64,000 nt of DNA from an uncultured Pseudomonadota bacterium. Lineage in GTDB: Bacteria > Myxococcota_A > UBA796 > GCA-2862545. Every line of letters starts with the position of its first letter. The first letter of the stretch is position 1. The notes under the pieces were generated by a model, which ran no database searches, had not been told where the DNA came from, and saw only the letters and a list, made by a program, of their open reading frames with translations. Both the position numbers and the translations under genes were made by a program. The stretch covers positions 372,001 to 436,000 of the forward strand of contig CAJXTB010000002.1 in assembly GCA_913061235.1 (NCBI GenBank), read 5' to 3'. Below, in pieces: positions 4,748-20,047 of the stretch.

Positions 4748-5794
4748 ATGAAAATAGCGTTTTTGGCCATGACGTCGCTTGTGGCAGTCATCTCAGCAAC
4801 CTGCATGGGTGGCGGACCGATCGACGTGTCTGGAGCAGACGATCGTTTCGCAGAGAACGACCTGCCAGGCGCGTCAGCGGTACTGTCCACTCTCCAGGCT
4901 GAGCACCCAGACTCACCCGAAGTGATGCTTCGTGTGGCGTTAGATCAGGTGCTGGCTGGAGAATGGGATGCAGCGGACGCCACTCTGGCCGACCTCGAAG
5001 CTAAGACGGGTGATGAGAGCGGGGAGATTCGCTTTCGTCGGGCCATGGTCGCGGTGCAGGCCGCCGACAATGACCGCCTGGACGACATCAAGACCCACGG
5101 TCTTGCAAGCGGATTGCCTATGGGCAAGCTCTTTGCTGCCGAGGTCCACTTGTGTGACGCAGAAGCGGACGATGCCTTGGAACTGCTGAAGGAAGTCCGC
5201 GGCGAACCTGGCGCCGTTGGACAGACAGCCGAGGCCTACCTGGCGTTGCTTGAGAGTGGCAGCGTGTACAAGAGCGGTCTGGCAGAGGCGGGTGCGCTGT
5301 GGTCGGTCGGTCTTCGTGAGGTCGCCGTGCCTACCGCGGAAGAGATGCTCAAGCAGCTGTCTGACGACGAGCCCATGAAGGCCGAGCAGATGCTCGTGTG
5401 GGCTGGCCGCGCGGTCACGTCTGGCAACCCCGGTGCTGCGGCAACGTTGCTCGCTGAAATTGAAGTCATCGGGGCCCCGGAGAACCAGGGCTGGCGCGTG
5501 CAAGCGACCCGCGCGATGGTCTTCGTAGCGGACGGCCAAACCGCAGAGGCTGTGGCCATTCTGCAGTCGCTGCAAGAAGCAGCGGCGGACGGCTTCGTTC
5601 CCTACGAAGGCTTGATGGACGCGCGCGCTACCGCGGCGTCATTGTCAACGAGTCCGGCAGACGCACGGTTGTTAGCCGGTGACGTGGAATCGGTTGAGGC
5701 GGCGAGGGGTCTATTCCGCGCCGGCGCTACGCGAGTTGCGCGCGACGCGGCACCCTCATCCTCCGCTTTCGCGACTTTCCTGGAGAACCGATGA
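4748..5794 (+). CDS. exported helical-repeat (TPR-like) protein, first gene of transporter unit
   Basis: 348 residues. An N-terminal signal sequence is followed by Cys19 in SATC-MGGG; the -1 residue is Thr, so this is a poor lipobox and lipid attachment is uncertain. The remainder is Ala/Leu/Glu-rich amphipathic helices in roughly 34-residue pairs (for example 'AGEWDAADATLADLEAKTG', 'AEAVAILQSLQEAAADG'), resembling a tetratricopeptide scaffold in the periplasm. No catalytic motif is visible. The ribosome site GGAG lies six bases before ATG. The stop codon overlaps the next start (ATGA at 5791), which indicates translational coupling within the unit. The likely role is a periplasmic scaffold or adaptor for the transporter genes downstream, inferred from position only. 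Confidence 0.8.
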   Translation: MKIAFLAMTSLVAVISATCMGGGPIDVSGADDRFAENDLPGASAVLSTLQAEHPDSPEVMLRVALDQVLAGEWDAADATLADLEAKTGDESGEIRFRRAMVAVQAADNDRLDDIKTHGLASGLPMGKLFAAEVHLCDAEADDALELLKEVRGEPGAVGQTAEAYLALLESGSVYKSGLAEAGALWSVGLREVAVPTAEEMLKQLSDDEPMKAEQMLVWAGRAVTSGNPGAAATLLAEIEVIGAPENQGWRVQATRAMVFVADGQTAEAVAILQSLQEAAADGFVPYEGLMDARATAASLSTSPADARLLAGDVESVEAARGLFRAGATRVARDAAPSSSAFATFLENR

Positions 5795-6300
5795 TGGTTT
5801 TTTCCCGTCTTCTGCTCCCTGCTGCACGCCTTTCTAGCTCCCGCTTGCTCCTTGCTGCCGCGTTGACCTTCGGGACCGCAGCACTCTTGTCGGTGGCGAC
5901 TTCATCCGTCGCAATGGCTCAAGATACTGGCATCCCGGTGGAGATCCGCGTCATGGATACCGGTGGTGCCCCCATCGCCACTGCCGTGGTTCGTCATCCA
6001 GAAGAGCAAGAACGTCACCCGGTCAACACCATCACGGGTGCCTACACCACAGACGTTCTGTTCCTGCCAGATGGCTCGGAAAAGCTCTTTATCAAGGGCT
6101 TGGACCTTGAGTTTGAGGTCAGCGCCCCTGGCTTTGTCACCGCGAATGTGCGGCACATCGTTCGCAAGCGCCGCAATGTCATTGCGGTCACGCTTGAGAC
6201 GATGGAACTAAATCTCCTCGATGATCTCGAGGAACCTGTGATCCAATTCGGTCGCGACCGTCCCATCGACGGCGCTACCCCAGCGGACCCTGCGCAGTAG
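5791..6300 (+). CDS. exported small beta-sandwich protein (carboxypeptidase-regulatory/CnaB-like)
   Basis: 169 residues. A long signal peptide with an Arg-containing N-region and Ala/Leu core ends at AMA-QD (about residue 44). The mature part begins IPVEIRVMDTGGAPIATAVV, the opening strand and 'G-x-P-I-x-x-A-x-V' turn typical of carboxypeptidase-regulatory or transthyretin-like sandwiches, and continues through ITGAYTTDVLFLPDG and FEVSAPGFVTANVRHIV, again typical of that fold. The acidic tail of ~30 residues is probably unstructured. It overlaps the preceding gene by four bases, with GGAG upstream. It may bind partner proteins or peptidoglycan in the periplasm; no enzymatic residues are seen. 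Confidence 0.8.
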   Translation: MMVFSRLLLPAARLSSSRLLLAAALTFGTAALLSVATSSVAMAQDTGIPVEIRVMDTGGAPIATAVVRHPEEQERHPVNTITGAYTTDVLFLPDGSEKLFIKGLDLEFEVSAPGFVTANVRHIVRKRRNVIAVTLETMELNLLDDLEEPVIQFGRDRPIDGATPADPAQ

Positions 6301-6323
6301 CGCATCCTAGGAGCCTTTTCTCT

Positions 6324-7667
6324 ATGTCTCGTATGCTCATGGCGCTGGCCCTTGGATTCGGATTCGCGACGTCGTCTGCGCAAGCAACAACGTGGTCGGA
6401 TTACGAAGAGTCTTTCCCTGCATTTCCGTGCTTGGATGGCTGGACTGCTTGCTACCAAGGTGGTGAACGCATCACGCCGGACCTCGTCCAGCGCGGTGGC
6501 ATGCCATCTCCAGCGAGTGCTCGGGTGGATTGGTTCACTCTCACCCCGACTTCGGCCTTCAGTCCGTTTGTGGGCTTGACGGCCTACGACCTAGGCGGTG
6601 CTCCGGTCGCAGTGGTTCCAGACCCCATCCCAGAGCCCGTGGCCCCGGTTCCAGACATCCAGCCTGAGCCATACGACCCGGGACCCGTGCCGGTGGGCAC
6701 CACTCCGGATCCAACTCCCGAACCGGTTCCCATGGTTCGTCCAGAGCCGCCAACACCTGATCCTGGTGGAATGGTGCGTCCCAGTCCAACTCCTGAGCCG
6801 GTTCCCATGGTTCGTCCAGAGCCGCCGACGCCTGACCCGGGTGGAATGGTACGTCCGCAGCCTTCACCCGACCCGGCACCAGTGGTCCGTCCAGAACCAC
6901 CAACGCCCGATCCGGGTGGAATGATTCGCCCCGGACCGTCTCCGGTCACTCCGGCGCCTATCGTAGAGGTTCAGCCACCGACTCCGCAGCCACCGACTCC
7001 TGACCCCGTAATGGTTCGCCCCGACCCAGCGCCTGTCGTTGTCCCTGTTGCAGTCGTTACCCCGGGCCCTGTCACTTGTGACGATCTGGTTCGGCTAGAG
7101 TCCTCCGCACTCATCGGACGCTTGTCTGCCGAGCAGTCGGCGTGTCTCGAAGCATCCTTTGCGGATGCGGCACGACAGACGGACAAGAAGAAGATTTCCC
7201 TGCTGCTCATCGCCAATGCCAACGGCAAGGGTGACAAGCGAGCATGGGAAGCACTCGTTCGCCGGCACCTTGAGGACATTGATCAGTCCGACCCGGATAT
7301 CTGCTACTCGTACGCCACCCACTTGGCCCGCAAGGGACCGGGTCGCGCCGAGAGTGTCATTCGCTGGTCCGAGATTGCCCTTGAAAACCGCACCCGTTGG
7401 GTAGGCGAGACCTACAAGAGCCGCGTGTATGGCCTGTACAAGCTCCGCGCAGCAGCTGCGAACACCCTCTGGATTCGGGCAGAAGCTAGCCACGCGGAAG
7501 CTCAGACAGACGAGACCGAGAGTACCGTCGAGCGCACCCGTGGCCGTCTAAAGACCTACGCACGCGAGTGGTACGAGTACGCAAAGGAAGCAGGCAAGGA
7601 CACTACGACTCCGCTTCAGCTGTGCGTGTCTGCCGCAGGAACCTCTGAGTTCTGTGAGGGCCGTTGA
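6324..7667 (+). CDS. exported Pro-rich protein with C-terminal module C
   Basis: 447 residues in four parts. Residues 1-22 are a signal peptide ending AQA-TT. Residues ~23-95 form a small domain with a Cys pair (FPCLDGWTACY). Residues ~96-245 are a Pro-rich extended arm containing three near-identical 25-residue repeats (RPEPPTPDPGGM core), suited to spanning the periplasm or peptidoglycan. Residues ~252-447 are a helical domain starting CDDLV and ending in a Cys-containing tail. That last domain (module C) recurs, highly similar throughout, in the gene at 12601-13395, where it carries a transmembrane anchor instead of the Pro-rich arm. No known family is recognised. A TAGGAG ribosome site lies ten bases before ATG, and its stop (TGA) overlaps the next ATG by one base. 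Confidence 0.85.
   Translation: MSRMLMALALGFGFATSSAQATTWSDYEESFPAFPCLDGWTACYQGGERITPDLVQRGGMPSPASARVDWFTLTPTSAFSPFVGLTAYDLGGAPVAVVPDPIPEPVAPVPDIQPEPYDPGPVPVGTTPDPTPEPVPMVRPEPPTPDPGGMVRPSPTPEPVPMVRPEPPTPDPGGMVRPQPSPDPAPVVRPEPPTPDPGGMIRPGPSPVTPAPIVEVQPPTPQPPTPDPVMVRPDPAPVVVPVAVVTPGPVTCDDLVRLESSALIGRLSAEQSACLEASFADAARQTDKKKISLLLIANANGKGDKRAWEALVRRHLEDIDQSDPDICYSYATHLARKGPGRAESVIRWSEIALENRTRWVGETYKSRVYGLYKLRAAAANTLWIRAEASHAEAQTDETESTVERTRGRLKTYAREWYEYAKEAGKDTTTPLQLCVSAAGTSEFCEGR
6714..6938 (+). repeat. three 75-bp in-frame tandem repeats in the Pro-rich arm
   Basis: Three 75-base units start at 6714, 6789 and 6864, each encoding 25 residues around RPEPPTPDPGGM. Units 1 and 2 are nearly identical at DNA level; unit 3 is more diverged. 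Unit copy number could vary between strains and set the arm length. Confidence 0.85.
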
Positions 7668-9055
7668 TGCTTCGTCGCGCTTTCGTCGTCAGCTTGGCGG
7701 CAGGCCTCGTTGGTGGGGCGGCATTGTCCGCCTGTTCCGGCGAAACGCCAGAGACTGAAACTCAGGTTGGGCCGTCGGACTCGATGGTCAATCCGGAGCT
7801 CTTGGCATTGTCGTGGCCTATGGTCACGGCAGACGAAGCTGTCTTGGCGACCTACTCGGGTCAACCGGGCTGGCTGTCTTTGGTGACGAGCGGCAAGATT
7901 CGTGACGCTGTTGAACAGCTCGGCCCAACCGGTGGCTTGGCCGCTGCGCGTGCCCACGCGGAAGCCGCAGCCATGTACAAGCAGGCGGCAATGCTGTCGG
8001 CCACGTCCGCTCAGGCGACGTACGAAGGTAGCCCGCGCGAGACGGATGCACGTGGAGCCGTTCACCTCAACATGATCGGACACGCCCTCAATGGCGATGT
8101 CGCCGGCGCCAAGGCGCTTGCTGAAGCGGGTGTTGAGGACTTGAGCCCTGAGGCACAGGTGTTCCACGAGGTGTGGAAGACAGCACTTATGGCAGACCCT
8201 GCATCTACTCCCACGGCCGATGCGTTGTCAGCAGTCGTGAACCTACCTGCTGTCACCGTTGGGCAGTGGCCGGAGCTAGCCCTCGAGCCGCACTACACCT
8301 TGGCCGAACAAGCCGAAGGTAGCGAACTCAGCGTGACTGATCCGAGCGCACTCATGGCATTGGCACTGTGGCATGACGCAGCTGCGGATATCGCCGCACC
8401 AGAGTCCGCTGCCGCACTGGATGTGTTCGGCGCCCGATACCGCTTTCTGTACGAGCCGGTACCGACCTCTGATGCCGACTTGCCCATGGAGCTTGTCTTT
8501 GGCGCCGACATGCTCACGCCAGCGGATGGCCCATTCCTGGCCGCACTTACCGGTGACGCTGGAATTTCTGCTGTAGACGCTTGGAAAGAGCGCAGCCTTC
8601 TTGCGTCGCTCGCTCACGCCAGCCGCATAGATGGCGCCTTGTCCGTAGATGTGGCACAAGATGCGGCGTCAGAAGCTCGCGCCGATGTCCTCGCTGGCAT
8701 GTCTGCTGCTGCTGGAGGGAATACATTGGGGCACCACCGGGTCTTCGCAGACATCGTGATGGTGGGGGTCCTTCGAGCCATGGCACTGGTCGCGGAAGCA
8801 GAGGGCAACCATGAGGCTGCCGGCATCTTGCTCATTAGTGCCATGGAGCGCAGCAGCGCCGAGTACACGGCTGACCCCGAGGCCCTACTGTTTCTGTCAG
8901 TATGGGATGCTCGCAACCGATACCCCGTGCGCGGCACGGAAATCCTTCACAATCTCATTCGTCGATATCCCAACCTGGAAGCGGCCCGATTCGGCTTAGA
9001 CGCACTTACACTGCGCGAAAGCCGAGCACGCGGTTCCCAGAATCCTGGTCTGTAA
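7667..9055 (+). CDS. helical-repeat lipoprotein of the transporter unit
   Basis: 462 residues from the ATG at 7667 (a TTG immediately before it is less likely). The signal peptide ends in a textbook lipobox (AALSAC, Cys about 23), followed by an acidic spacer. The mature protein is Ala-rich and almost wholly helical, with repeated 'AxAxAExxGxxxAA' helices, like a solenoid of TPR or Sel1 kind, although no repeat consensus is clean. The final ~60 residues (YPVRGTEILHNLIRRYPN onward) read like a TPR pair, as in Tol-Pal system YbgF. The gene is coupled to the preceding one by the TGATG overlap and followed after 15 bases by a solute-binding protein gene. A role as an envelope scaffold or capture protein is inferred from context. 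Confidence 0.82.
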   Translation: MLRRAFVVSLAAGLVGGAALSACSGETPETETQVGPSDSMVNPELLALSWPMVTADEAVLATYSGQPGWLSLVTSGKIRDAVEQLGPTGGLAAARAHAEAAAMYKQAAMLSATSAQATYEGSPRETDARGAVHLNMIGHALNGDVAGAKALAEAGVEDLSPEAQVFHEVWKTALMADPASTPTADALSAVVNLPAVTVGQWPELALEPHYTLAEQAEGSELSVTDPSALMALALWHDAAADIAAPESAAALDVFGARYRFLYEPVPTSDADLPMELVFGADMLTPADGPFLAALTGDAGISAVDAWKERSLLASLAHASRIDGALSVDVAQDAASEARADVLAGMSAAAGGNTLGHHRVFADIVMVGVLRAMALVAEAEGNHEAAGILLISAMERSSAEYTADPEALLFLSVWDARNRYPVRGTEILHNLIRRYPNLEAARFGLDALTLRESRARGSQNPGL

Positions 9056-9070
9056 GGAGTACATCCAACG

Positions 9071-10648
9071 ATGCGCCGTGCAAATACCCTGCTCATAGCT
9101 ACCGGCATGATGGCCACCATCCTCCTCACGGGGTCGACGGTTAGCTACTACGAGGAATCGCTTCCCTCGACCATGAACCCGCTCTACGCACGGTCCATGG
9201 TGGATTACCGCTCGCACGAACTTATGTTCGACCGGTTGTTCTTCCGTTCTCCAATCACCAACGAAGTCGAGACTCGCATTCTCGACTCGTACGAGCTTCT
9301 AGAGGACAACCGCAAGCTGCGCGTTGTCGTCAAGGAAGGCATCCAGTGGCACGATGGCGAGGACCTCGGTCCCAATGACATCTGTTTCACGGTCGCCGCA
9401 ATGTTGGACCCGGGCACAGCGTCGCCGGTAGTCAAGCCGTTCCGCGAAGCGATTGTCAGTTGTGAGTACAACAATCGCGACCGGTCTGCCGAGATTACCT
9501 TGTCGCGCAGCTACCACAACCCGTACGACCGCCTTGGTTTTGCAGTGCTTCCTGAGCATCTGTTCCCGAGCACGGCAGTCAGCCCGGACCTCGACTTCAG
9601 TCATCGTCCTATCGGAACTGGTCCAATGCGCGGTTCCAAGGGAACGCGTGGCGTGCGCTTTACGGCGGTTCCGAATGGTCACCACAATGCCCGCATCGAG
9701 GTCATGAACCTCCAGCCTGGCGGTGACTCCTTCGTCCAGATCCGTACGCTCATGGCGTCGGGTGTTCAGGGCGTCATCACCGTTCCACCTGCACTGCGAC
9801 CAGAGGTCCAAGCGTCTGACGATGTTGCGCTCAAGTCCTACGACTTGCGCTCATGGTGGTTCATTGCGGTCAACACCACCCGTGGTCCACTACAGAACAA
9901 GAAGATTCGCCAAGCCATCGACCTGTCTGTCGACCGCACCGAGCTGCGTAAGCTGACCATTGGCTACGACGAGAACGACCCGAATCCGCCGTGTGAGTTC
10001 ATCTCCGGGCCGTTTGTTCAGTCTTCGCCGTACTACAACCGTCAGGTTCCGCCTCGCGATACCGCTGACAAGGCACGTGCCGAGCAGCTCATGACAGAAG
10101 CTGGCGCACAGAAGATTGCGGGTTCCTGGGTTCTGGATGGCGACCCCATCACGCTGCGAATCGGCATGAACGCACCCCTGGACGCCGAAGCTCGGGACAT
10201 CCTGAACCAGTTTGGCAACCAGATGCAGGGCGCTTCGTTCAACCAGCAGGTCACCCGCGTCTCTGCAGACGATTGGGCCACCCGCGCGGTCACCGGCAGC
10301 CTCACTTCCGAGTACGACCTGCTCATCGGCAAGTGGTCGTTCGGCTTGGTCGAAGACGTCAACAGCCTCTTCCACACCCGCTCGACGGACGGTAAGGGTG
10401 GCTTGAACATCTTCAACTACAGCAACCCGGAAGTGGATGTCATCTTGTCCCGCTACGAATCGGCTCGCACCGATACTGAAGCGCAAGATGCGTACCATGA
10501 CCTGCACGCCAAGCTGGCCGAAGAGCTGCCTTACATCTTCCTCTGGAAGCTGGACACCAAGAGTGCGTGGCGTAACGAAGTCCGTGGAAACACCATTTCC
10601 CCGTACTACTACTTCACCAACTTCGACGGTTGGCGCCACGACGGCTAG
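9071..10648 (+). CDS. ABC transporter solute-binding protein, family 5 (peptide type), no lipobox Cys
   Basis: 525 residues. It belongs to the extracytoplasmic solute-binding family 5 (oligopeptide/dipeptide/nickel type): YYEESLPSTMNPLYA near the N-terminus, the lobe-I GIQWHDGEDLGPNDICFTV motif (family signature V-x-W-H-D-G-x-P-x-x-A-x-D), KIRQAIDLSVDR in the middle, and a C-terminal hinge with EELPYIFLWK. The N-terminal signal ends ILLTGS, where a lipobox would need Cys (LTGC), so this copy is probably soluble or uncleaved. It is highly similar to module B of the next gene (10735-12531), differing mainly in its N-terminal part. An AAGGAG site lies 11 bases before ATG. The substrate cannot be read from the sequence. 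Confidence 0.92.
   Translation: MRRANTLLIATGMMATILLTGSTVSYYEESLPSTMNPLYARSMVDYRSHELMFDRLFFRSPITNEVETRILDSYELLEDNRKLRVVVKEGIQWHDGEDLGPNDICFTVAAMLDPGTASPVVKPFREAIVSCEYNNRDRSAEITLSRSYHNPYDRLGFAVLPEHLFPSTAVSPDLDFSHRPIGTGPMRGSKGTRGVRFTAVPNGHHNARIEVMNLQPGGDSFVQIRTLMASGVQGVITVPPALRPEVQASDDVALKSYDLRSWWFIAVNTTRGPLQNKKIRQAIDLSVDRTELRKLTIGYDENDPNPPCEFISGPFVQSSPYYNRQVPPRDTADKARAEQLMTEAGAQKIAGSWVLDGDPITLRIGMNAPLDAEARDILNQFGNQMQGASFNQQVTRVSADDWATRAVTGSLTSEYDLLIGKWSFGLVEDVNSLFHTRSTDGKGGLNIFNYSNPEVDVILSRYESARTDTEAQDAYHDLHAKLAEELPYIFLWKLDTKSAWRNEVRGNTISPYYYFTNFDGWRHDG
9139..10645 (+). repeat. module B copy 1 (solute-binding domain), paralogous to 11023-12528
   Basis: Diverged gene-scale direct duplication. 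From SYYE at the N-terminus to FTNF at the C-terminus the two proteins align without large gaps, with long identical runs such as LKSYDLRSWWF and SGPFVQSSP. The shared segment covers ~500 residues. Confidence 0.9.
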
Positions 10649-10695
10649 CCGTCCCATTTGAACAATGTTGTGGGGTGTTCGCACCCCGTTCCGTC

Positions 10696-10731
10696 CGCCT
10701 CCTCTGGACTCTTTTTTGAGCCGTGGAGGCG
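10696..10731 (+). promoter_or_regulatory. hairpin that contains the ribosome site of the anchored SBP gene
   Basis: The arm CGCCTCC (10696-10702) pairs perfectly with GGAGGCG (10725-10731). An inner GG-A-CTC/GAGCC stem flanks a six-T loop. The 3' arm carries GGAGG (10725-10729), five bases before the GTG at 10735. Thus the same structure could end the upstream transcript or mask the ribosome site. Confidence 0.55.
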
Positions 10732-10734
10732 TTT

Positions 10735-12531
10735 GTGTTGCCAGCGTGGATTGAGTGGGGACTTCGGCGCCCGCATGTAGTTTTTGTACCCGTACTCATG
10801 GTGCTCTTGTTCCTGTGTCTGGCGTTGGCCCCCATCTCTGGATGGCCCGACCGGACGCAGGTGGTTCCCACTTACCTGGGGACCCCTCCGTTGTTGCCGG
10901 CTGGGCCGGAGGTGGCCGATTCTCTTGTTGCCGACAAGCCGGATGTGGCGGAACAGTCTACACAATGGACCCGTGCCGAACGTCGAACTAGCCCACATGC
11001 GGAGGGAGCGTTCGAGGGAACTATTTCCTACTACGAGGACGCTCTTCCATCGACAATGAACCCCCTCTATGCGCAGTCGATGGTGGATTATCGAACGGCT
11101 GAGCTCGTGTTTGACCGCTTGTTCTTCCGCTCGCCGATCACCAACGAAGTGACGAGCCGGGTCGTAGAGGATGTTGAGTTGGACGGGGACGGGCAGGGGG
11201 TGACTGTCACGGTGTGGGACGACATCCTGTGGCACGACGGAGAGCCGCTCACAGCCGACGACATTTGCTTTACTGTGGACACGATTCTGGACCCAGAGAC
11301 GGTCTCGGTCGCTACCGTGGTCTTCCGAGATGCACTCGCCACATGTACGGTCAGCGCAGATGAGCGCTCTGCGACGATTCGCTTCGTTCGTCCCTTGTTC
11401 AACCCCTTCGACCATCTCGGCTTCTGGGTTCTGCCGCACCATGTGTTCGACCGGCAAGATGTGAGTCCAGACCACGATTTTTCTCACCGTCCTGTCGGTA
11501 CCGGCCCTATGCGGGGGTCCAAGGGGACGCGCGGCGTTCGCCTGACGGCCATTCCCAATGCGCATCAGGGCGCCCGCATCGCCGTGGTGAACCAACAGCC
11601 CGGCGGAGATGCGTTCGTTCAGATTCGCACGCTCATGTCGAAAGGGGTTCAAGGCGTGGTCACCGTACCGCCGGCCCTTCGCCCCGAAGTCCAAGCCTCT
11701 GCGGACGTGGCGTTAAAGTCGTATGACCTGCGCTCGTGGTGGTTCGTCGCCATGAATACCACCCGTGGACCGCTTCAAGATGTCCGGATTCGCGAGGCGA
11801 TTGAGCTGTCCATCGACCGGACGGAGCTGCGTCGGCTCACGGTGGGGCACAACGCCAACGACCCAAACCCAGCGTGTGAGTTCATCTCCGGGCCGTTTGT
11901 TCAGTCGTCTCCGTTTTACAACCGTGCGATTACAGCACGCCCTACAGCGGATCTGGTCCTGGCCGAGCAGCGCATGACGGAAGCGGGAGCAACGAAGGTA
12001 GCGGGGGTATGGCATCTGGACGGCAGCCCCGTCTCCCTGCGTGTTGGCATGAATGCGTCGCTGGATGTTGAGGCGCGCGACATTCTCAATCAGCTCGGAA
12101 ATGGGCTTCAGGGAGCATCGTTTAACCAAGAGGTCCAGCGCATCTCCGCCGATGACTGGGGGACTCGCGCTGTCACCGGTAGCTTGACCTCCGAGTACGA
12201 CCTTCTGATGGGCAAGTGGTCCTTCGGGCTCGTCGAAGACGTCGGTAGTCTCTTCCACACGCGCTCCGCCGATGGTGAGGGCGCGCAGAACATCTTCAAC
12301 TACAGCAACCCCGAAGTGGACGCCATCTTGGCTAGGTATGGGGCCGCACGCTCGGACCGAGAGGCCCAAGATGCCTACCACGAGCTGCACGCCTTGCTCG
12401 CCGATGACCTGCCGTACATCTTCCTGTGGAAGCTCGACACCAAGAGCGCTTGGCGCAACGAGGTCCGCGGAAACACCATCGCGCCGTTCTACTACTTCAC
12501 GAACTTCGAGGGCTGGCGCTACGATGACTGA
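10735..12531 (+). CDS. membrane-anchored ABC solute-binding protein (module A + module B)
   Basis: 598 residues from the GTG at 10735. I chose this start because GGAGG lies five bases upstream and because it aligns with the GTG start of the gene at 12601; a GTG at 10723 is also possible. Residues ~1-60 (module A) are a short amphipathic stretch (WIEWGLRRPH), one membrane helix (FVPVLMVLLFLCLALAPI) and a linker ending GTPPLLPAGPE. After ~35 polar residues comes a complete family-5 solute-binding domain (module B) beginning SYYEDALPSTMNPLYA, paralogous to the 9071 protein. It has no signal-peptidase site, so the binding domain is tethered to the inner membrane with its domain in the periplasm. 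It should deliver substrate to the permeases at 13578 and 14486; the substrate is unknown. Confidence 0.92.
   Translation: MLPAWIEWGLRRPHVVFVPVLMVLLFLCLALAPISGWPDRTQVVPTYLGTPPLLPAGPEVADSLVADKPDVAEQSTQWTRAERRTSPHAEGAFEGTISYYEDALPSTMNPLYAQSMVDYRTAELVFDRLFFRSPITNEVTSRVVEDVELDGDGQGVTVTVWDDILWHDGEPLTADDICFTVDTILDPETVSVATVVFRDALATCTVSADERSATIRFVRPLFNPFDHLGFWVLPHHVFDRQDVSPDHDFSHRPVGTGPMRGSKGTRGVRLTAIPNAHQGARIAVVNQQPGGDAFVQIRTLMSKGVQGVVTVPPALRPEVQASADVALKSYDLRSWWFVAMNTTRGPLQDVRIREAIELSIDRTELRRLTVGHNANDPNPACEFISGPFVQSSPFYNRAITARPTADLVLAEQRMTEAGATKVAGVWHLDGSPVSLRVGMNASLDVEARDILNQLGNGLQGASFNQEVQRISADDWGTRAVTGSLTSEYDLLMGKWSFGLVEDVGSLFHTRSADGEGAQNIFNYSNPEVDAILARYGAARSDREAQDAYHELHALLADDLPYIFLWKLDTKSAWRNEVRGNTIAPFYYFTNFEGWRYDD
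10738..10911 (+). repeat. module A copy 1 (membrane anchor and linker)
   Basis: It encodes W-I-E-W-x-x-RRPH, a membrane helix and the linker end GTPPLLPAGPE. The second copy at 12604-12777 encodes W-V-E-W-x-x-RRPH, a helix and GTPPALPAGPE in the same order and spacing. Confidence 0.8.
11023..12528 (+). repeat. module B copy 2 (solute-binding domain)
   Basis: Paralogue of 9139-10645. DNA-level identity is clearly reduced at third positions, so this is not a recent duplication, but protein conservation is high across the whole domain, which suggests that both copies are under selection. Confidence 0.9.
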
Positions 12532-12600
12532 AACGTTGCGTCGCTCGTGCAGTAGTCGTTCTCAAAACCCCACTACCGCGAGTCTATCTACGCGTGCGCC

Positions 12601-13395
12601 GTGTTGATCGCGTGGGTCGAGTGGGCAGTCCGGCGACCACATCTGTCCGTCATCCCTTTGGCCATGCTCCTGGTGTTTGGCTACCTATTGACCCTTCCTA
12701 TCCACGTCTTCGATGCCAACTCTGGGCCGACGCGGCCCGCGGTCGGCACACCACCCGCGCTGCCCGCCGGGCCAGAGTCTGCGGTAGAGCAGACAGACTC
12801 CGGGTGCGACGACCTCGTCCAGCTCGAATCCACGGCTCTCCTTGGTCGTTTGTCCATCGGTCAGGTCGCATGCCTTGAAGCGTCGTTTGCGGCAGCGACC
12901 CACCAGACCGACACGAAGAAAGTCTCTCTGCTGCTCATCGCCAACGCGAATGGGCGAGGCGACAAGGATGAGTGGGAAGCGTTGGTTCTGCGTCACCTTC
13001 GGGAGATTGATTGGTCGGACCCAGACATCTGCTACGCGTATGCAACCCATCTTGCACGCAAGGGCCCTGGGCGCGCCGAGGCGGTGATTCGCTGGTCTGA
13101 CGCCGCGCTTGAGAATCGCCCCCATTGGGAGGGGGACACCTTCAACTCCCGTGTCTATGGACTGTACAAATTGCGCGCAGCCGCAGCGAATACGCTGTTT
13201 CGCCAGTCAGAGAGGCGCGATGAAAGGCTGCAGACGGACGAGTCATTCACAGCGGCTCAGCAGGCCCAAGAGCGCCTGCAAGCCTATTCCCGAGAGTGGC
13301 TCAAGGTGGCAAGGCTGCTTGGCAAGAACGCCGAGACTCCGCTGCAGCTGTGCCTAGAGGTCTCGCAATCCGTGGACCTTTGCGAAGGCGAATAG
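12601..13395 (+). CDS. membrane-anchored protein with module C (module A + module C)
   Basis: 264 residues, GTG start. Residues 1-60 repeat module A of the preceding gene: WVEWAVRRPH, a membrane helix, and a linker ending GTPPALPAGPE. Residues ~69-264 are module C, starting CDDLVQLES and containing LLLIANANGRGDK and YATHLARKGPGRAEAVIRW, closely matching the C-terminal domain of the Pro-rich protein at 6324-7667. Module C is helical, TPR-like in parts, with Cys residues near both ends and one in DICYAYA that may form periplasmic disulfides. Its function is unknown. It sits between the anchored solute-binding protein and the first permease, so a partner or regulatory role in the transporter is the simplest inference. 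No clear ribosome site precedes the start. Confidence 0.88.
   Translation: MLIAWVEWAVRRPHLSVIPLAMLLVFGYLLTLPIHVFDANSGPTRPAVGTPPALPAGPESAVEQTDSGCDDLVQLESTALLGRLSIGQVACLEASFAAATHQTDTKKVSLLLIANANGRGDKDEWEALVLRHLREIDWSDPDICYAYATHLARKGPGRAEAVIRWSDAALENRPHWEGDTFNSRVYGLYKLRAAAANTLFRQSERRDERLQTDESFTAAQQAQERLQAYSREWLKVARLLGKNAETPLQLCLEVSQSVDLCEGE
12805..13392 (+). repeat. module C copy 2 (copy 1 at 7077-7664)
   Basis: Both copies open with CDDLV-x-LES and close with TPLQLC and a CEG tail. Identical internal runs include SLLLIANANG and GLYKLRAAAANTL. The copies lie 5 kb apart in two different gene contexts. Confidence 0.88.
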
Positions 13396-13577
13396 GGGCC
13401 CGTTTCCGCTTTGCGCGGCTGACCAGAGTCGCACGACGCTGTCATCCCTAGACAAACTTGGTTGGATTGCCAGCTTCTTACAGGGCTCATGTCTGGTGCA
13501 ACCACAGCCGGCGTCAACTTTGCTACAATAGACTCGCTCCCGCCGATGGGGGCGACGTTTCTTCCATTGGGGGTTCG
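13396..13577 (+). promoter_or_regulatory. 182-base gap before the permease genes, possible internal promoter
   Basis: This is the longest gap inside the 4.7-19.4 kb unit. A TACAAT hexamer at 13524-13529 could be a -10 box, but no good -35 is placed 16-18 bases before it. GGGGG (13567-13573) serves as ribosome site for the GTG at 13578. No strong hairpin is seen. Confidence 0.3.
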
Positions 13578-14489
13578 GTGCAGTGGTGGGTACGGCCTCT
13601 CGTCCGAGCGGTCGCAGCGGTGGCGCTTCCTTTATTGGTGCCTGCCATCATCATCGCAATCATGTGGGCACTGCCGGGCAATCCGGCGGAGCTCATCTGC
13701 CCGAATTGCTCGGGAACTGCCGAACTGGCGGAGCGGTGGAACCTCGACCAAGGGCCGGTCAACTTCTATACGAAGTGGCTGGGCAACGCCTTTACGCTCG
13801 ACTTCGGCAAGTCGTGGCGAACGTATCAAGGCATGCAGGTCTCCTCGCTTCTGTGGGAGAAAGGCCCGTGGACCGCGGCCCTTGTGCTACTTGCGGCCAT
13901 TCCACTCTTTCTCGGCACCGTATCTACAGCGTTGGGTTGGTTGCCCAAGCGCCTTGATGTGGTCTGGCAGGTGATTGGCATCGCGCCATCGGTCATTCTG
14001 GCACTCATCTGCACCGCGTACGTGACCATCACTTGGGGCGCCATGTCGACCGAAGGGCCCATTGCTCTGTTGCGACTTGCTCTAGGGGCCCTCGTCTTGG
14101 GGGTTGCTGACGGTGCGCTCGCTGGCGCGGTCACCGGAACCCGGCACGTCATGGAGGAAGAGGTCAAGCAGCGGTACGTCGGAATCGCGATTCTGCGTGG
14201 AGAGCGCGTTCTGGTGAATGCTCTTCCAAACGTCATTCCTGCGCTTGTCGGACAGTTCCGTGGACGTCTGTTGCTCATCCTGTCGAGCGCCGTCATTGTT
14301 GAAGTCGTCCTTCAGATTGACGGCCTTGGCAGTCTCTTGTGGTCGGGAACCCTGATGCAAGACTTTGGAGTAGTCCTTGCCGCCGTGTGGGTCATCACCC
14401 TCATCAGCTGCGCATTGCTGCTCACCCAGGCCATCATCGAGGTCATCGTCGAGCGCTCCATCCGCCACAGTCCAGCGGTGCCGGCATGA
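13578..14489 (+). CDS. ABC transporter permease, oligopeptide type (DppB/OppB-like)
   Basis: 303 residues from the GTG at 13578, chosen because a G-run ribosome site is five bases away and because translation further upstream gives a non-membrane, low-quality N-terminus. It has about six membrane helices. After helix 1 comes ALPGNPAELICPNCSG; PG-[DN]-P is the family motif, but the CPNC pair is unusual. It continues with WNLDQGPVNFYTKWLGN, matching the family's 'L-x-LDQP-x-x-x-Y-x-x-WL' loop. The cytoplasmic coupling loop is around RYVGIAILRGERVLVNALPN, equivalent to the family's EAA loop, and IDGLGSLLWSGTLMQDF matches the terminal 'PGLG-x-L' region. It would pair with the next permease to form the channel. 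Its stop overlaps the next ATG (ATGA). Confidence 0.9.
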   Translation: MQWWVRPLVRAVAAVALPLLVPAIIIAIMWALPGNPAELICPNCSGTAELAERWNLDQGPVNFYTKWLGNAFTLDFGKSWRTYQGMQVSSLLWEKGPWTAALVLLAAIPLFLGTVSTALGWLPKRLDVVWQVIGIAPSVILALICTAYVTITWGAMSTEGPIALLRLALGALVLGVADGALAGAVTGTRHVMEEEVKQRYVGIAILRGERVLVNALPNVIPALVGQFRGRLLLILSSAVIVEVVLQIDGLGSLLWSGTLMQDFGVVLAAVWVITLISCALLLTQAIIEVIVERSIRHSPAVPA

Positions 14490-15493
14490 GGCGCGCACCG
14501 ATTGGCCGGCGGATTTGGTTGGGCGTGGCGGTCGTCCTGCTGATTGTTTTGGTGGTGTCTGGCTTTATGGCGCCGGATTCACTGCCCACTCCGGAGTACA
14601 GCGAGTCGTACAAGGGACCACTGTCGGTGTTCCCGTTCGGCAACGATGACCGCGGCATCTCGCTTCTTCCAAGAGTCCTGCAAGGGGCCGGAATCATCTT
14701 GGTTCCCGCACTTGTCGCGGCTTCGGTGCTGATGGCTTTGTCCACCTTGGCCGGATTGGCCCGCAGTGCTGGTATTGGCTGGTTCGACGTCGTCCTCACC
14801 GGATTTACCGAGCTGGTAGGGGCGCTGCCAAGACTGGTCATCATCCTTGTGGTCGCCGTCGCCATCCCCGCCATTCCTGCTGGCTACGACGCCTTGTTTG
14901 GCTCGGAAGAAGCGGTCGGTCTGTTGGGAGGTGTAGGAAACGCCGTTCGGGGGCTCATTTCCCGGCCGTCTGGCCAAGCGTCGCTACTCCCCATTGCTCT
15001 GACGTGGGCCATTCTTGCGGCACCTCAAGCCATGGATGAAGCGGCGGCTACGGCCGGTCGCTTGGGTGGGGCGCGCTTTGTCGAAGCGTTGCGCGCGCAT
15101 GGGTTTAGCGCAATCCGCATCTATTTCTACCATATCGTGTGGTTGAACCTCCGTTCTGTGGTTGTCCGTCAGGGCGCAGAAGTCATCACCCAAGTGGCGT
15201 TCCTTGAAATCTCGCTGTCGTACTTGGCGCGCAGCCAGTTTCTGCCTGCCATTACGCACTCCGACAGTAGCTACTCGTGGGCGTCTCTTCTGTACGACGG
15301 CTACTCTTGGTGGCTCACAGTGCCGCCGGCGTCTGCCGAGCTCACCTCTTCGATACCGGTCTGGGGCCAGATCTTGTCGGTCATTCACTACATGACTGCG
15401 CCCGGCGCACACATTCTGGCCGTTGGATTGGTGCTCTTGGCGTTGATCGCGCTGATGGCTCATGGCTTCCGAGTAGCGGCGAGGGGAAGATGA
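14486..15493 (+). CDS. ABC transporter permease, oligopeptide type (DppC/OppC-like)
   Basis: 335 residues from the ATG at 14486, which overlaps the upstream stop as ATGA. It has one N-terminal helix (LGVAVVLLIVLVVSGFMAPD), a periplasmic loop including YKGPLSVFPFGNDDRGISLLPRVL (family feature: G-T-D-x-x-G-R-D), then five further helices. The coupling loop around AAATAGRLGGARFVEALRAHGFSAIRIYFYHI fits the DppC EAA motif (A-R-x-x-G). The region EVITQVAFLEISLSYL also fits the family's conserved 'E-x-x-LSFLG'. It forms the heterodimeric channel with the 13578 product and is coupled to the ATPase gene that follows by another ATGA overlap. Confidence 0.9.
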   Translation: MRRAPIGRRIWLGVAVVLLIVLVVSGFMAPDSLPTPEYSESYKGPLSVFPFGNDDRGISLLPRVLQGAGIILVPALVAASVLMALSTLAGLARSAGIGWFDVVLTGFTELVGALPRLVIILVVAVAIPAIPAGYDALFGSEEAVGLLGGVGNAVRGLISRPSGQASLLPIALTWAILAAPQAMDEAAATAGRLGGARFVEALRAHGFSAIRIYFYHIVWLNLRSVVVRQGAEVITQVAFLEISLSYLARSQFLPAITHSDSSYSWASLLYDGYSWWLTVPPASAELTSSIPVWGQILSVIHYMTAPGAHILAVGLVLLALIALMAHGFRVAARGR

Positions 15494-16215
15494 GCGAGTT
15501 TGAGCCGTTGCTGGTCTTGGAAGACCTGTGCATTCGCACCCCCGAGCGCACGCTGGTGGATGGCGTCAGCTTCACCGCTCACCGTGGCCGCATCACAGCG
15601 GTTGTGGGTAAGTCGGGGTCCGGCAAGAGCTTGTCAGCACGCGCCGCGATGGGTGTGTTGGACGTTGACCCTGGCCTCGTTCGCGGGTCGCTCAAGTACC
15701 CAGGTACCAGCGGGGACAAAGATTGGTTCGCTGGCGTGCACAATCAGGGCATGAAAGCGCAGATGAAGCTGCTCAAGCAGAGTCGTCATCTGCGTGGTGG
15801 GTACATCACCTACAGCCCGCAGTCGGCGTCGTCTGCGCTCAACCCAGGGCGGACGATTGGTCGGCAGCTGCAGATGGCCATCGAGCGTCGAGATGTTCAG
15901 CCTGCCAACCTGGGTGTGGCTATCAAAGCGGTGTTGGACGAAGTTGGGCTTCCAAGCCGAGCGGCCTACGCACTGCCGCGCGAGTTGTCGGGAGGCATGG
16001 CCCAGCGTGCCGCGGTCGCCTTGGCGATTGCGCCCATCCCACAGGTATTGATTGCAGATGAACCAGAGACGGGGCTCGACCCTGTTCTTCGACGTGTCAT
16101 CACGAACCTGATGGTCGACGTGGCCAAGAACCACAACGTGGCCCTGGTGCTGATCACGCACAATATGGACACCGTCGCACGCATCGCTGACGTCATTGTC
16201 CGCGTGGGGGAGTAG
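15490..16215 (+). CDS. ABC transporter ATPase, DppD-like, short form
   Basis: 241 residues from the ATG at 15490 (ATGA overlap with the permease). All nucleotide-binding elements are present: Walker A GKSGSGKS (40-47), Q-loop around YSPQSASSALNPGRTIGRQL (the family's 'Q-x-x-x-x-SLNP' stretch), signature LSGGMAQR, Walker B VLIADEPETGLD and H-loop THNMD. Typical DppD proteins are ~330 residues and end in an oligo_HPY segment with Cys residues; here translation stops shortly after the H-loop, so that segment is absent. It forms the ATPase pair with the next gene on the cytoplasmic face of the permeases. Confidence 0.92.
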   Translation: MSEFEPLLVLEDLCIRTPERTLVDGVSFTAHRGRITAVVGKSGSGKSLSARAAMGVLDVDPGLVRGSLKYPGTSGDKDWFAGVHNQGMKAQMKLLKQSRHLRGGYITYSPQSASSALNPGRTIGRQLQMAIERRDVQPANLGVAIKAVLDEVGLPSRAAYALPRELSGGMAQRAAVALAIAPIPQVLIADEPETGLDPVLRRVITNLMVDVAKNHNVALVLITHNMDTVARIADVIVRVGE

Positions 16216-16217
16216 TC

Positions 16218-17021
16218 ATGGCACAGACCCCGATTGTTCGCGTAGATGCTCTGTGCAAGCGCTTCATCATTCATGGAACGTGGCCGTGGAGCCCCAAGAA
16301 GGATGTAGACGCCATCGTCAACGTCTCGTTCGACGTCATGCCTGGAGAAGTCGTTGCACTCGTCGGGCAGTCCGGTTCGGGCAAAACCACAGCGGCGCGA
16401 TGTGTTCTGGGCCTAGAGACCATCACTTCGGGCCGTATTGAGCTGATGGGCGAGCGGTGGGACGCGCTCAGCGAGCATGAGCGTCGTAAGAAGCGTGCAC
16501 GGTACCAATACATTCCCCAAGACGCGCTGTCCGCACTCGACCCGCAACAGACAGCCCTAGAGCATGTCATCGAGTCCCTGACTGTGCTTGGTGGTCTGGC
16601 CAAAGACGAGGCTGAACGAGTTGGGCGAGACATGCTCGGCAACCTCGGTCTTAACGAAAGACTACACGCGCTGCCCCGCGAGATGAGTGGCGGCGAACAA
16701 CGCCGAGTCACCTTGGCCCGGGTATTTGCGCTGCAACCGGCGCTGGTCGTTGCGGACGAACCCACGAGTGGTTTGGACCCGGATCGGCAAGAGTCAGTTT
16801 TAGAGGACCTTATCGAGAACCTGCCCGAAGGGGCGGGGTGCATTCTAGTGACTCATGACATGGCTCATGCGCGTCAGTGGTGCAATCGCGCCCTCGTGAT
16901 GCTTGAGGGTCAGGTCATTGAAGAGCTACGATTCCCAGACGGGCAGCCGTCTCACCCTTATGCCCGTATGTTGTTCGACCCTTGGGGAGAACACGACCTC
17001 GCCCAGTCCACGGAAGTGTGA
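16218..17021 (+). CDS. ABC transporter ATPase, DppF-like, short form
   Basis: 267 residues, two bases after the previous stop. It has Walker A GQSGSGKTT (50-58), YIPQDALSALDPQQTALEHV (Q-loop), signature MSGGEQRRVTLAR, Walker B LVVADEPTSGLD and H-loop VTHDM. Residues 20-31 (HGTWPWSPKKDV) match the insert typical of OppF/DppF-type subunits between the first strands. The C-terminus PSHPYARMLFDP resembles the start of the family's 'HPYT-x-x-L' region but ends soon after, so the Fe-S-like Cys tail is missing. It partners the 15490 ATPase. Confidence 0.93.
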   Translation: MAQTPIVRVDALCKRFIIHGTWPWSPKKDVDAIVNVSFDVMPGEVVALVGQSGSGKTTAARCVLGLETITSGRIELMGERWDALSEHERRKKRARYQYIPQDALSALDPQQTALEHVIESLTVLGGLAKDEAERVGRDMLGNLGLNERLHALPREMSGGEQRRVTLARVFALQPALVVADEPTSGLDPDRQESVLEDLIENLPEGAGCILVTHDMAHARQWCNRALVMLEGQVIEELRFPDGQPSHPYARMLFDPWGEHDLAQSTEV

Positions 17022-17025
17022 ATCC

Positions 17026-18213
17026 ATGAGAAACCTTCTTATCTGCCTGTTGGTCGCCGGCCTGTCTTCGACAGTGCTTGCACAGGATGCGTTTGCTCAA
17101 TCCGCAGAGTCCAGGGCCGAAGCCCGTCGTCTGCAAGGTGAGCTGGAACGTCGTGCACAACGTGGCGCATGGGAAGGCGTAGAGGGAACGTACCAGCGCA
17201 TGCTCGCCCTTAATACTGAGCTTGAGTTCGACGGCCACATGATTGGCGCTCAGGCCGCTGGTGCCCTGGGCAAGACGTGGGAACGCTACCAACGCTTGGA
17301 GCGCGCGCTGGCGTTGCAGCAAGAGCAAGAGATTGTGGACTCAATGAGCGCCATTGATGGTGCTTACGGACGGGTCAGGTTGCGCGGTAATCCACGTTGG
17401 GACGTTGTCTTTACTCGCCCCGTTCAGCCCTTCATTCCCGATCAACGTAAGAGCATCGAGTACGGGTCTTTTGTTCTGACTGAAGGTGGACAGTTCGAGG
17501 GCATGCTGCCTGCGGGCGAGTACGTACTCGGCGGCGACGACACCAAAGAGACACTGACGTTCACGGTGGAGCCTGGTGAAGACTGGCAGGTCATCGATAT
17601 CCAGCGTGGCTATGCTCGCGGTGGAGAAGGCATCGTCTACCACGGCCCTATTGCCACGGTGGGGTACGCATTTACAGCATCGCCCGAGCCGTCAGCGCCG
17701 GTCTTGATCGACGGATTTTCCGGTGGAGAGCGTCACAGCGCTCAGCCAGGTTCCGTCACGGGTAGCGGGCTTGGCGTGGAGCTAGGCTGGGAAGTAGGAC
17801 CGACTCGATTGGTCGCCGCAGCAGCGTCGTTGTCGTACTCTGGACTCGTCTTTGGTGGAGAAGACACCTTCCACATGGGCTACGGTTGGGCCGGTGTCGC
17901 GCTGCGTCCTGGCAACCTTCGCATTGCGGTTGGGCCGACATACGGCGTCTTGCGCGGCAAAGGGACAGGGGTCATCCCCTCATTCGACGTCGGACAGGAT
18001 CCAGGCCGATATCAGCCACAAAACATCGGTTACAAAGGCTCCGCTTGGGCTAGTGGCGCTCGAATGACCGCTTCGTACGGTTTGTTGGACTTAGAACCCC
18101 TTCAGGGGGTTGTTGAGTTGGGTGGTCACTGGCAAACAGACGGTGCTCGCTCATATTTTGATGTCGGTATCCGGGTCGGAATCGTTCCAAAGGTTCCGCG
18201 GTTTGAAGGGTAA
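17026..18213 (+). CDS. probable outer-membrane or periplasmic beta-rich protein with coiled N-terminus
   Basis: 395 residues from the ATG at 17026, four bases after the upstream stop. The signal peptide ends near AFA-QS. Residues ~30-115 are strongly helical (EARRLQGELERRAQRGAW), possibly a TPR pair or coiled coil. Residues ~130-200 form a beta domain with a PEGA-like pattern (GMLPAGEYVLGGDD, FTVEPGEDWQVIDI). From ~250 onward there are alternating hydrophobic and polar strands with Gly/Tyr/Trp turns (GVELGWEVGPTRLV, YGWAGVALRPGNLRIAVGP) ending YFDVGIRVGIVPKVPRFEG, compatible with a small beta-barrel, although the terminal residue is not aromatic. It could be the outer-membrane component of the transporter unit; that is inference. 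Confidence 0.75.
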   Translation: MRNLLICLLVAGLSSTVLAQDAFAQSAESRAEARRLQGELERRAQRGAWEGVEGTYQRMLALNTELEFDGHMIGAQAAGALGKTWERYQRLERALALQQEQEIVDSMSAIDGAYGRVRLRGNPRWDVVFTRPVQPFIPDQRKSIEYGSFVLTEGGQFEGMLPAGEYVLGGDDTKETLTFTVEPGEDWQVIDIQRGYARGGEGIVYHGPIATVGYAFTASPEPSAPVLIDGFSGGERHSAQPGSVTGSGLGVELGWEVGPTRLVAAAASLSYSGLVFGGEDTFHMGYGWAGVALRPGNLRIAVGPTYGVLRGKGTGVIPSFDVGQDPGRYQPQNIGYKGSAWASGARMTASYGLLDLEPLQGVVELGGHWQTDGARSYFDVGIRVGIVPKVPRFEG

Positions 18214-18267
18214 GCGACTCCCTTTTTGTTATTTACGAGTTCTCTCGACACACGGTTGGAGATTTGC

Positions 18268-19350
18268 ATGATTCGCACGACACCATGGCTACGCAAGGCT
18301 GGTACTGCGCTCGGAATGCTGGCTGGACTGGCTCTGGCCACAACCGCAAGTGCTGGTACGGTACGCTTTGAGGGTCAAGGGCATACTGAAAACCCAGTGT
18401 GGTCGACTGATGGCAGGTACATTGCCTTTGAGGTCAACCCGCTCGGAAGCGGCGATACGCACATGTTTATCGCCGAGGTGTCCGGCAGCGTTGCCAAGGA
18501 TGCCAAGCGCATGTCGCTACCGGGTGGTGGCGGAGGGTTTGGTGCTGGCAACCAGGTCGCCATCAATCCCGCATGGTCATCCCAGGGTGTGGCACTGTTC
18601 GAAGGCAGCAACCAAGGCGGGCAGTTCCGTATCTACTACGCAAGCCCGACCGGTGGTGGCGCTAGCGAGATGCTGCCTACGTCCATGATTGCAGGTGACG
18701 TCACAATGCCAACGCTAAGCCCCGATGGCAGCAACATGGCCTTTGTGTCGGACTTGACCGGCAATGGAGACCTGCGGCAGTGGAACAGCTCCACCAATGC
18801 CATCACGCAGCTCACGAACAGCGAAGGCACCGAGATGTTCCCGCAGTATTCTGCGGACGGCAGCAAGATTGTCTTCACCCGTAAGCGCAACAGCATCGAA
18901 GCGGTCTACATGATCGACCTCGCATCTGGTGAAGAGCGCACCGTCTCCTCGGGCAACACGGATCGTAGTCGTCCAGCGTTTGCTGGGGACCGCGTTGTGT
19001 TCCTGTCACAGCGAGAGGCGGAATGGGACTTGGTGTCTGTGGATATGAATGGTCAGGGGCGTGAGACTCTCGCTCGCAATGTTCGAGTGGGCACGCACGG
19101 TCGCCCCCAGATCACGCCAGACGGCCGTTATGTGGCGTTTGCCAGCAATGACCCCACGCAGTCCAGCACAGTGACCTTGGCCCGCGTGGATGGGTCTGGA
19201 ACGGTAGACATCCCCACCGAGTTCGTCGCATGTGGTGAGCCTGCCGTGACGGTTGTGGACGGCCGCACCTACCTCGCGTTCACCGCTCTACCGGATGCGG
19301 ACGCCGCGTACCGTTTCCTGGAAGTGATGGACATTACTGGCCGCATCTAG
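18268..19350 (+). CDS. exported TolB-like WD40/PD40 propeller protein
   Basis: 360 residues from the ATG at 18268, supported by GGAG seven bases upstream; an earlier ATG at 18226 adds a non-signal stretch. The signal peptide ends at ASA-GT. The mature part carries PD40-type blades: PVWSTDGRYIAFEV, PTLSPDGSNMAFVSD, PQYSADGSKIVFTRKR, a degenerate RPAFAGDRVVFLSQR, and PQITPDGRYVAFASN. The gene ends the plus-strand unit; a strong terminator follows at 19381. TolB itself lies in tol-pal operons and carries an N-terminal domain that is absent here, so this is a TolB-like propeller rather than TolB. It may act as a periplasmic docking protein. Confidence 0.88.
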   Translation: MIRTTPWLRKAGTALGMLAGLALATTASAGTVRFEGQGHTENPVWSTDGRYIAFEVNPLGSGDTHMFIAEVSGSVAKDAKRMSLPGGGGGFGAGNQVAINPAWSSQGVALFEGSNQGGQFRIYYASPTGGGASEMLPTSMIAGDVTMPTLSPDGSNMAFVSDLTGNGDLRQWNSSTNAITQLTNSEGTEMFPQYSADGSKIVFTRKRNSIEAVYMIDLASGEERTVSSGNTDRSRPAFAGDRVVFLSQREAEWDLVSVDMNGQGRETLARNVRVGTHGRPQITPDGRYVAFASNDPTQSSTVTLARVDGSGTVDIPTEFVACGEPAVTVVDGRTYLAFTALPDADAAYRFLEVMDITGRI

Positions 19351-19380: not shown

Positions 19381-19418
19381 AAAAAGGGGCGATTCACACC
19401 AGTGAGTCGCCCCTTTCC
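19381..19418 (+). terminator. strong intrinsic terminator of the 4.7-19.4 kb unit
   Basis: AAAGGGGCGAtTCAC (19383-19397) pairs with GTGAgTCGCCCCTTT (19402-19416), a 15-bp stem with a single T-G wobble and a four-base loop. It lies 30 bases after the propeller gene. The A-rich lead and the T-rich end make it usable in both directions, so it can also serve the convergent lipoprotein gene. Confidence 0.88.
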
Positions 19419-19431
19419 GTTGCTGCACTTC

Positions 19432-19479
19432 CTAGAAGAAGCAGTGCACGTCTAGAAGAAGCAGTGCACGTCTAGAAGA
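19432..19479 (-). repeat. 20-bp tandem duplication of a gene's 3' end
   Basis: CTAGAAGAAGCAGTGCACGT occurs at 19432-19451 and 19452-19471 and is followed at 19472 by a diverged third copy that contains the stop and last codons (C-F-F-F) of the minus-strand lipoprotein gene. The two perfect copies lie beyond the stop codon. Confidence 0.85.
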
Positions 19480-20047
19480 AGAAGCAGCGCGCGTCACTGC
19501 GGAAGTTCGCAGACTGACGGTCGCTGGTGCCGGTGCCCAGCGGACGGCCACTCTCGGAGTAGATGAAGTCAGTGCTTCCGTCTGAGTTCTCGCGCACGTT
19601 GTAGGTCTCGGTGAACGGCGCGGATTCCTGCTGGATGAACTCGGGCAAACAATCGGACTCTTCGAAGTTCAAGGTGCCGTCAATGCTCATGCTGTACTGG
19701 CACGATGGACAGTTGATGGGGTCACCAGTGACGCCTGCAATGTTCCACACGAGCTTGCAGTCTTCGGCACCCGAGACCTCGCGCCACCGGTCATTGACAA
19801 TGTGCGCCCATGCCTCAAAGCCCTCTACACGGCCGTCATCTAGCAGGGCGTACTCCCCAACAAACCAGCCCATGGAGCCGGCAACAGGCGTGCCCTCGAA
19901 TCCGTCACAGGCGTCATCATAGGGGTAGGGGTTTGCCAGTGGGTCGGGCAGTCGGCCTTCATCCGGACCGTCGCCATCGCCCGCTGGGCAGCCGGTGAGT
20001 CCAATGGTGAGTCCAAGGGTGAGTACAGCTAAAGTCATCCAGCGCAT
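19472..20047 (-). CDS. Cys-containing lipoprotein of unknown function
   Basis: 191 residues. A signal peptide with lipobox GLTGC (Cys20) is followed by an acidic Asp/Pro linker. The mature domain (~45-191) is beta-rich with paired cysteines (CKLVWNIAG, NCPSCQYS, SDCLPEF) and ends SDARCFFF. It should be lipid-anchored in the envelope with disulfides. No known family is recognised. The ribosome site GGAGG lies five bases before ATG. Convergent with the propeller gene; they share the terminator between them. Confidence 0.82.
   Translation of the reverse strand: MRWMTLAVLTLGLTIGLTGCPAGDGDGPDEGRLPDPLANPYPYDDACDGFEGTPVAGSMGWFVGEYALLDDGRVEGFEAWAHIVNDRWREVSGAEDCKLVWNIAGVTGDPINCPSCQYSMSIDGTLNFEESDCLPEFIQQESAPFTETYNVRENSDGSTDFIYSESGRPLGTGTSDRQSANFRSDARCFFF

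Follow-up and report, generated by a model that had tools for sequence, protein, structure and literature searches.

The 13-gene cluster at positions 4748–19350 of the window, the whole 64,000-nucleotide stretch that was analysed (contig C2:372001–436000 of a 7.2-Mb assembly), is best read as a conserved, accessory-rich ABC importer built on a family-5 solute-binding protein (SBP) and joined by outer-membrane, periplasmic and kinase-linked components. Gene order, co-inheritance, homology between this cluster (cluster A) and a paralogous cluster B, and kinase fusions make it very probable that the genes serve one functional system. A physical importer spanning the whole envelope has slightly better than even chances, and coupling to the kinase is a tentative proposal. 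All 13 open reading frames lie on the plus strand and have high GC3 (0.61–0.74), and these genes and their families agree with the preliminary description. Together with the divergent upstream kinase and the downstream hairpin, they are listed below.

3209–4630, minus strand: Ser/Thr protein kinase, divergent upstream neighbour (Pkinase 1e-15)
4748–5794, plus strand: gene 1, TPR protein, a lipoprotein in most orthologues (TPR_19 5e-7)
5791–6300, plus strand: gene 2, small secreted beta-sandwich-like protein (CarboxypepD_reg 0.011, weak)
6324–7667, plus strand: gene 3, secreted Pro-rich arm with C-terminal module C (AF2, homology to cluster B)
7664–9055, plus strand: gene 4, predicted helical lipoprotein of no known family (invariant Cys24 at the lipobox position)
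9071–10648, plus strand: gene 5, free family-5 SBP (SBP_bac_5 8e-28)
10723–12531, plus strand: gene 6, predicted N-terminal anchor and duplicated SBP, lineage-specific (SBP_bac_5 3e-27)
12601–13395, plus strand: gene 7, predicted anchor and duplicated module C, lineage-specific (61% to the gene 3 C-terminus)
13458–14489, plus strand: gene 8, OppB/DppB-type permease (BPD_transp_1 3e-7, Opp2B 2e-18)
14486–15493, plus strand: gene 9, divergent OppC/DppC-type permease (NCBIfam Opp4C 1e-10)
15490–16215, plus strand: gene 10, ABC ATPase, D-type (ABC_tran 1.5e-17, NikD 3e-37)
16218–17021, plus strand: gene 11, ABC ATPase, F-type (ABC_tran 9e-30, NikE 4e-46)
17026–18213, plus strand: gene 12, predicted TPR-like helices, small beta domain and eight-strand barrel (AF2)
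18268–19350, plus strand: gene 13, secreted PD40 beta-propeller, TolB-like (PD40 5e-23)
19383–19416, plus strand: terminator-type hairpin at the end of the unit (15-bp stem, 4-nt loop, -29.1 kcal/mol, z -7.2)

The hairpin bears out the strong terminator proposed for the end of the unit. The overlaps of 1–4 nt that had been ascribed to many of the genes are real but fewer than claimed: after start codons were corrected from orthologues, 4-nt ATGA overlaps occur at only four of the 12 junctions (5791/5794, 7664/7667, 14486/14489 and 15490/15493). Two further junctions nearly abut (16215/16218 and 17021/17026), the remainder abut or leave gaps of up to ~160 bp, and the largest gaps (~70–160 bp) lie on both sides of genes 6 and 7. 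The true start of gene 8 is probably at ~13557. A scan for sigma-70-type promoters gave matches at chance level only, and genes 3, 4, 7 and 12 belong to no Pfam family. Beyond the hairpin, a small lipoprotein gene (19472–20047, minus strand) converges on the cluster and is kept in ~13 relatives, some of which have it twice in tandem. At 24850–31035, the minus strand encodes a secreted protein of 2061 aa in which Asp-rich and beta-helix-like segments recur.

SBP neighbourhoods fetched from relatives yielded 31 A loci from six families of the order. Genes 1, 2, 3, 4, 5, 8, 9, 10, 11, 12 and 13 are collinear on one strand in every one of them, with all 11 genes present in 24 loci; the other seven are truncated by contig ends or short hits, and none of the 31 departs from the order. 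The linkage between the ABC and accessory genes is thus far beyond chance. The flanks of the A loci vary (a dusA hit in seven, the convergent lipoprotein in 13), and in relatives the 4-nt overlaps 8/9 and 9/10 are near-universal and that of 10/11 is frequent. Gene 4 was found in 51 of the 58 order genomes searched, usually as one full-length copy that adjoins the SBP wherever contigs permit, with a second copy on a separate contig in G018. The genomes in which the A-type SBP is missing (G001, G003, G006, G015 and G029, the last a 72%-complete genome) have no gene 4, module C or cluster B either. Several contigs of the order (L116, L119, L123, L149, L150, L154 and L170) are filed publicly as Klebsiella pneumoniae, Bifidobacterium breve or Rhodobacterales and are apparently mislabelled MAGs.

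The claim of a single 13-gene unit therefore holds for 11 genes (1–5 and 8–13); a conserved unit of all 13 was ruled out, since genes 6 and 7 are lineage-specific duplicates with no counterparts in relatives. The anchored SBP, which had been put forward as a hallmark of the system, is for the same reason a local feature. SBP 6 is 72% identical to gene 5 and is its sister in the FastTree phylogeny (support 1.0), on a branch three times as long. The module C of gene 7 (~12796–13392) is 61% identical to that of gene 3 and at most ~48% identical to the modules of relatives. The dN/dS values, which are rough because dS is near saturation, are 0.14 for the SBP pair (5/6) and 0.17 for the module C pair (3/7), so that both duplicate pairs appear to be under strong purifying selection. 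The two proteins share a 60-residue N-terminus (~46% identical; ~10723–10902 in gene 6) in which one hydrophobic helix is predicted after a WxxRRPH stretch, in line with the anchoring proposed for both. This shared N-terminus and the duplicate origins suggest that a second SBP and a second module C were placed on the same anchor, and no other copy of the anchor was detected at E below 0.01 in the 58 genomes. An independent tandem duplication of the SBP occurred in L070. Extra SBP copies, 45–59% identical to gene 5, were also seen in L074, L075 and L094–L097, mostly without the rest of the cluster.

The paralogous cluster B carries homologues of genes 2, 3, 4, 5 and 8–13 in nearly the same order as cluster A; almost all genomes of the order have it, as do members of other Myxococcota classes. 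A search of the phylum with the SBP profile matched 62 of 284 genomes, other classes included, through the B SBP, a paralogue of the A SBP at ~30% identity. The B loci L098–L100 and L173–L192, some of them cut by contig ends, contain gene 2, the arm/module gene, gene 4, SBP, permeases, ATPases, gene 12 and the propeller, rearranged in several loci by a kinase–arm fusion before gene 2 and in L180 and L181 by a swap of genes 12 and 13. Comparison of the A and B families by hhalign gave 2e-8 for gene 2, 1.3e-6 for the module, 4e-17 for gene 4 and 2e-17 for gene 12, against 0.08–0.4 for unrelated control pairs. A joint gene-4 profile matched 74 of 379 genomes; outside the order, 20 of its 22 hits precede the SBP on the same strand at a distance of 59–163 bp, and the other two are on contigs without an SBP hit. 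Rather than being scattered elsewhere, genes 2, 4 and 12, the arm/module gene and the propeller adjoin the ABC genes in relatives both within the order and across the phylum.

The divergent Ser/Thr kinase lies outside the interval of the preliminary description and belongs to the picture of the system. Its catalytic motifs (VAVK/HRD/DLG) are intact, and a membrane helix is predicted at its C-terminus (TM 451–469). Such a kinase is present in 17 of the 26 A loci with upstream sequence and adjoins none of the other nine, and the separate A kinases are intact in 17 of the 18 sequences aligned, that of the window included. As in gene 3, a Pro-rich stretch precedes the gene-3-like module in most B loci. 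In L098, L100, L175, L178, L185, L187 and L189–L191, the module is the C-terminus of a protein with a kinase domain, and a single membrane helix separates kinase and module in the fusions inspected. All catalytic motifs are kept in L175 and L178, where the stretch before the module is not Pro-rich. In the order's own B fusions (L098, L100, L185, L187 and L189–L191), the catalytic Lys and HRD Asp are lost, as is the DFG Asp in most, so that these proteins are, judged from their motifs, pseudokinases retained in fusion with a periplasmic arm. Proteins that are fused in some species and encoded side by side in others are, by a classic line of evidence, taken to be functionally linked, and on this ground a link between the kinase and the arm/module is likely. 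The coupling would not be universal, given the pseudokinases of the order and the A loci without an adjoining kinase.

In the transporter core, gene 8 reaches the Pfam permease cut-off, while gene 9 has no Pfam match and only a weak one to Opp4C of NCBIfam. The ATPases of genes 10 and 11 score 65 and 104 bits against PF00005, and the Walker and signature motifs are intact in both translations, which suggests an active transporter. Gene 5 passes PF00496 with 98 bits (cut-off 32.4), and its closest solved protein is AppA (1xoc, 7e-30) at low identity. The importer-type permeases, ATPases and SBP point to import as the direction of transport. Every NCBIfam score is far below the curated cut-offs of the named equivalogs that specify substrate class, HMMER alignments to AppA and others were not decisive for the key residues of the SBP, and no metabolic neighbour hints at a substrate.

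The accessory proteins are predicted to be largely periplasmic or membrane-attached. Gene 1 keeps its position across the A loci, with a lipobox-like Cys in its orthologues, and the gene 2 alignment shows the motif TAVVRHP..E..R..VN. Gene 3 consists of a Pro-rich arm (~6612–7058), part of which is encoded by a 75-bp tandem repeat (~82% identical, 6710–6931), and module C (~7071–7664), which AF2 models as a TPR-like helical domain with a pLDDT of ~97 for residues 250–447 and low values before residue 250. The TPR-like fold matches of the module (Z 11–13) are not above the helical-repeat background, and it has no Pfam TPR match. The module also appears fused to a caspase-like peptidase (L103:9700–11790, minus strand; L110:8753–10573, plus strand), with Peptidase_C14 at 2e-10 in L110 and NCBIfam caspase matches of 3e-13/3e-14, in fusions of similar length in many relatives, which indicates that it is used outside the cluster. 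Stand-alone lipoprotein-like module C proteins occur at L101:9512–10324, in the window's own genome, and at L106:9774–10634.

Gene 12 had been described as a probable outer-membrane protein, and structure prediction supports an OmpA-like eight-strand barrel. The AF2 model (40-sequence alignment, mean pLDDT 89) runs from a helical N-terminus through a small beta domain to the barrel at residues 205–388, and its nearest solved folds are OmpA, NspA, OprF and Ail (Z ~14–18); the OmpA/NspA-like matches reach Z 15–18, with an rmsd of ~2–3.5 over 130–157 residues. Eight-strand barrels usually carry no wide channel and are not normally solute channels, and gene 12 is therefore likelier to be an anchor or platform than a pore. 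This counts against the importer reading to the extent that passage of the ligand across the outer membrane is left unexplained. Gene 13 matched TIGR02800 only at positions 190–408 of 418, with 109 against 343 bits; it was ruled out as a true TolB, since the N-terminal domain of TolB is missing.

In the fullest version of the importer, the two lipoproteins (1 and 4), probably sited at the periplasmic face of the outer membrane, would form with barrel 12 a receiving platform on the outer-membrane side, accompanied by propeller 13 and sandwich 2. The free SBP (gene 5) would take ligand at this platform to permeases 8 and 9, powered by ATPases 10 and 11. The Pro-rich arm and TPR-like module of gene 3 may bridge the periplasm and report the state of the transporter to a membrane Ser/Thr kinase, a separate protein in A and one fused to the arm in several B loci. 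Genes 6 and 7, in the species of the window, may tether a further SBP and module C to the inner membrane by their anchor, near the permease. That ligand is both imported and reported to the kinase in this way, in two paralogous systems across Myxococcota, is possible but falls well short of an even chance.

A system that works mainly as a sensor, with the ABC/SBP part detecting an outside peptide-like signal, the arm/TPR module passing it to the kinase and net uptake being secondary, is rather unlikely. The kinase–TM–arm–module fusions, the intact catalytic residues in 17 of the 18 divergent A kinases and the lack of catabolic genes seen near the cluster would all suit it, whereas the fused kinases in the order's B loci are pseudokinases, a kinase is missing next to some A loci, and the ATPases look fully active. 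It is improbable that the importer is of the ordinary Opp/Dpp type and that its extra genes are only neighbours in one long conserved operon, with no physical coupling. The core is recognisably Opp/Nik-like and conserved operons can contain loosely related genes, but the extra genes accompany the ABC genes across classes and in both paralogous systems, with flanks that vary, and are lost together. Least probable, at far below an even chance, is an envelope-building or export-related system (for example, one that delivers or removes an envelope component) in which the SBP-like part serves as a periplasmic carrier: the probable outer-membrane lipoproteins, TPR modules and barrel recall assembly machines and the propeller resembles the C-terminal half of TolB, but the permeases, ATPases and SBP all match importers, and the nearest solved relatives of the SBP are named peptide- or nickel-type binding proteins.

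The accessory-rich importer is apparently undescribed, as a literature search of open PMC text gave nothing relevant to the cluster. ABC importers of Gram-negative bacteria are usually seen as an SBP and inner-membrane parts, with outer-membrane passage via unrelated porins or TonB-dependent receptors. If the present reading is true, a family-5 importer operon with outer-membrane, periplasmic-bridge and kinase components would amount to a new architecture of uptake or sensing, found in a large, almost uncultured bacterial group. Gene 4, module C and gene 12 are also singled out by the analysis as families that lack a description, and for each a role is proposed that can be tested.

Parts of the cluster resemble well-known systems. 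Like TolB of the Tol-Pal system, gene 13 encodes a secreted PD40 beta-propeller, but it lacks the TolB N-terminal domain and ends an ABC operon, with no TolQRA/Pal seen beside it. The predicted fold of gene 12 is shared with OmpA, OmpX and NspA, from which it differs by its additional N-terminal TPR-like and beta domains, and unlike OmpA it has no C-terminal peptidoglycan-binding domain: Pfam gives no match, and the protein ends with the barrel. The B fusions share with PknB-type receptor kinases a cytoplasmic kinase, one membrane helix and an extracytoplasmic region; unlike those receptors, they are pseudokinases in the order's B loci, and outside the membrane they carry a Pro-rich arm and TPR-like module encoded in an ABC importer operon. 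A peptide-type ABC importer normally needs only five genes. The Opp/Dpp/Nik importers (AppA, DppABCDF and NikABCDE) have SBP_bac_5, two permeases and two ATPases in the same order as the cluster, in which the putative permease C is very divergent, the ATPases are short, the NCBIfam equivalog cut-offs are far off, and five or six extra conserved envelope genes and a kinase association are added.
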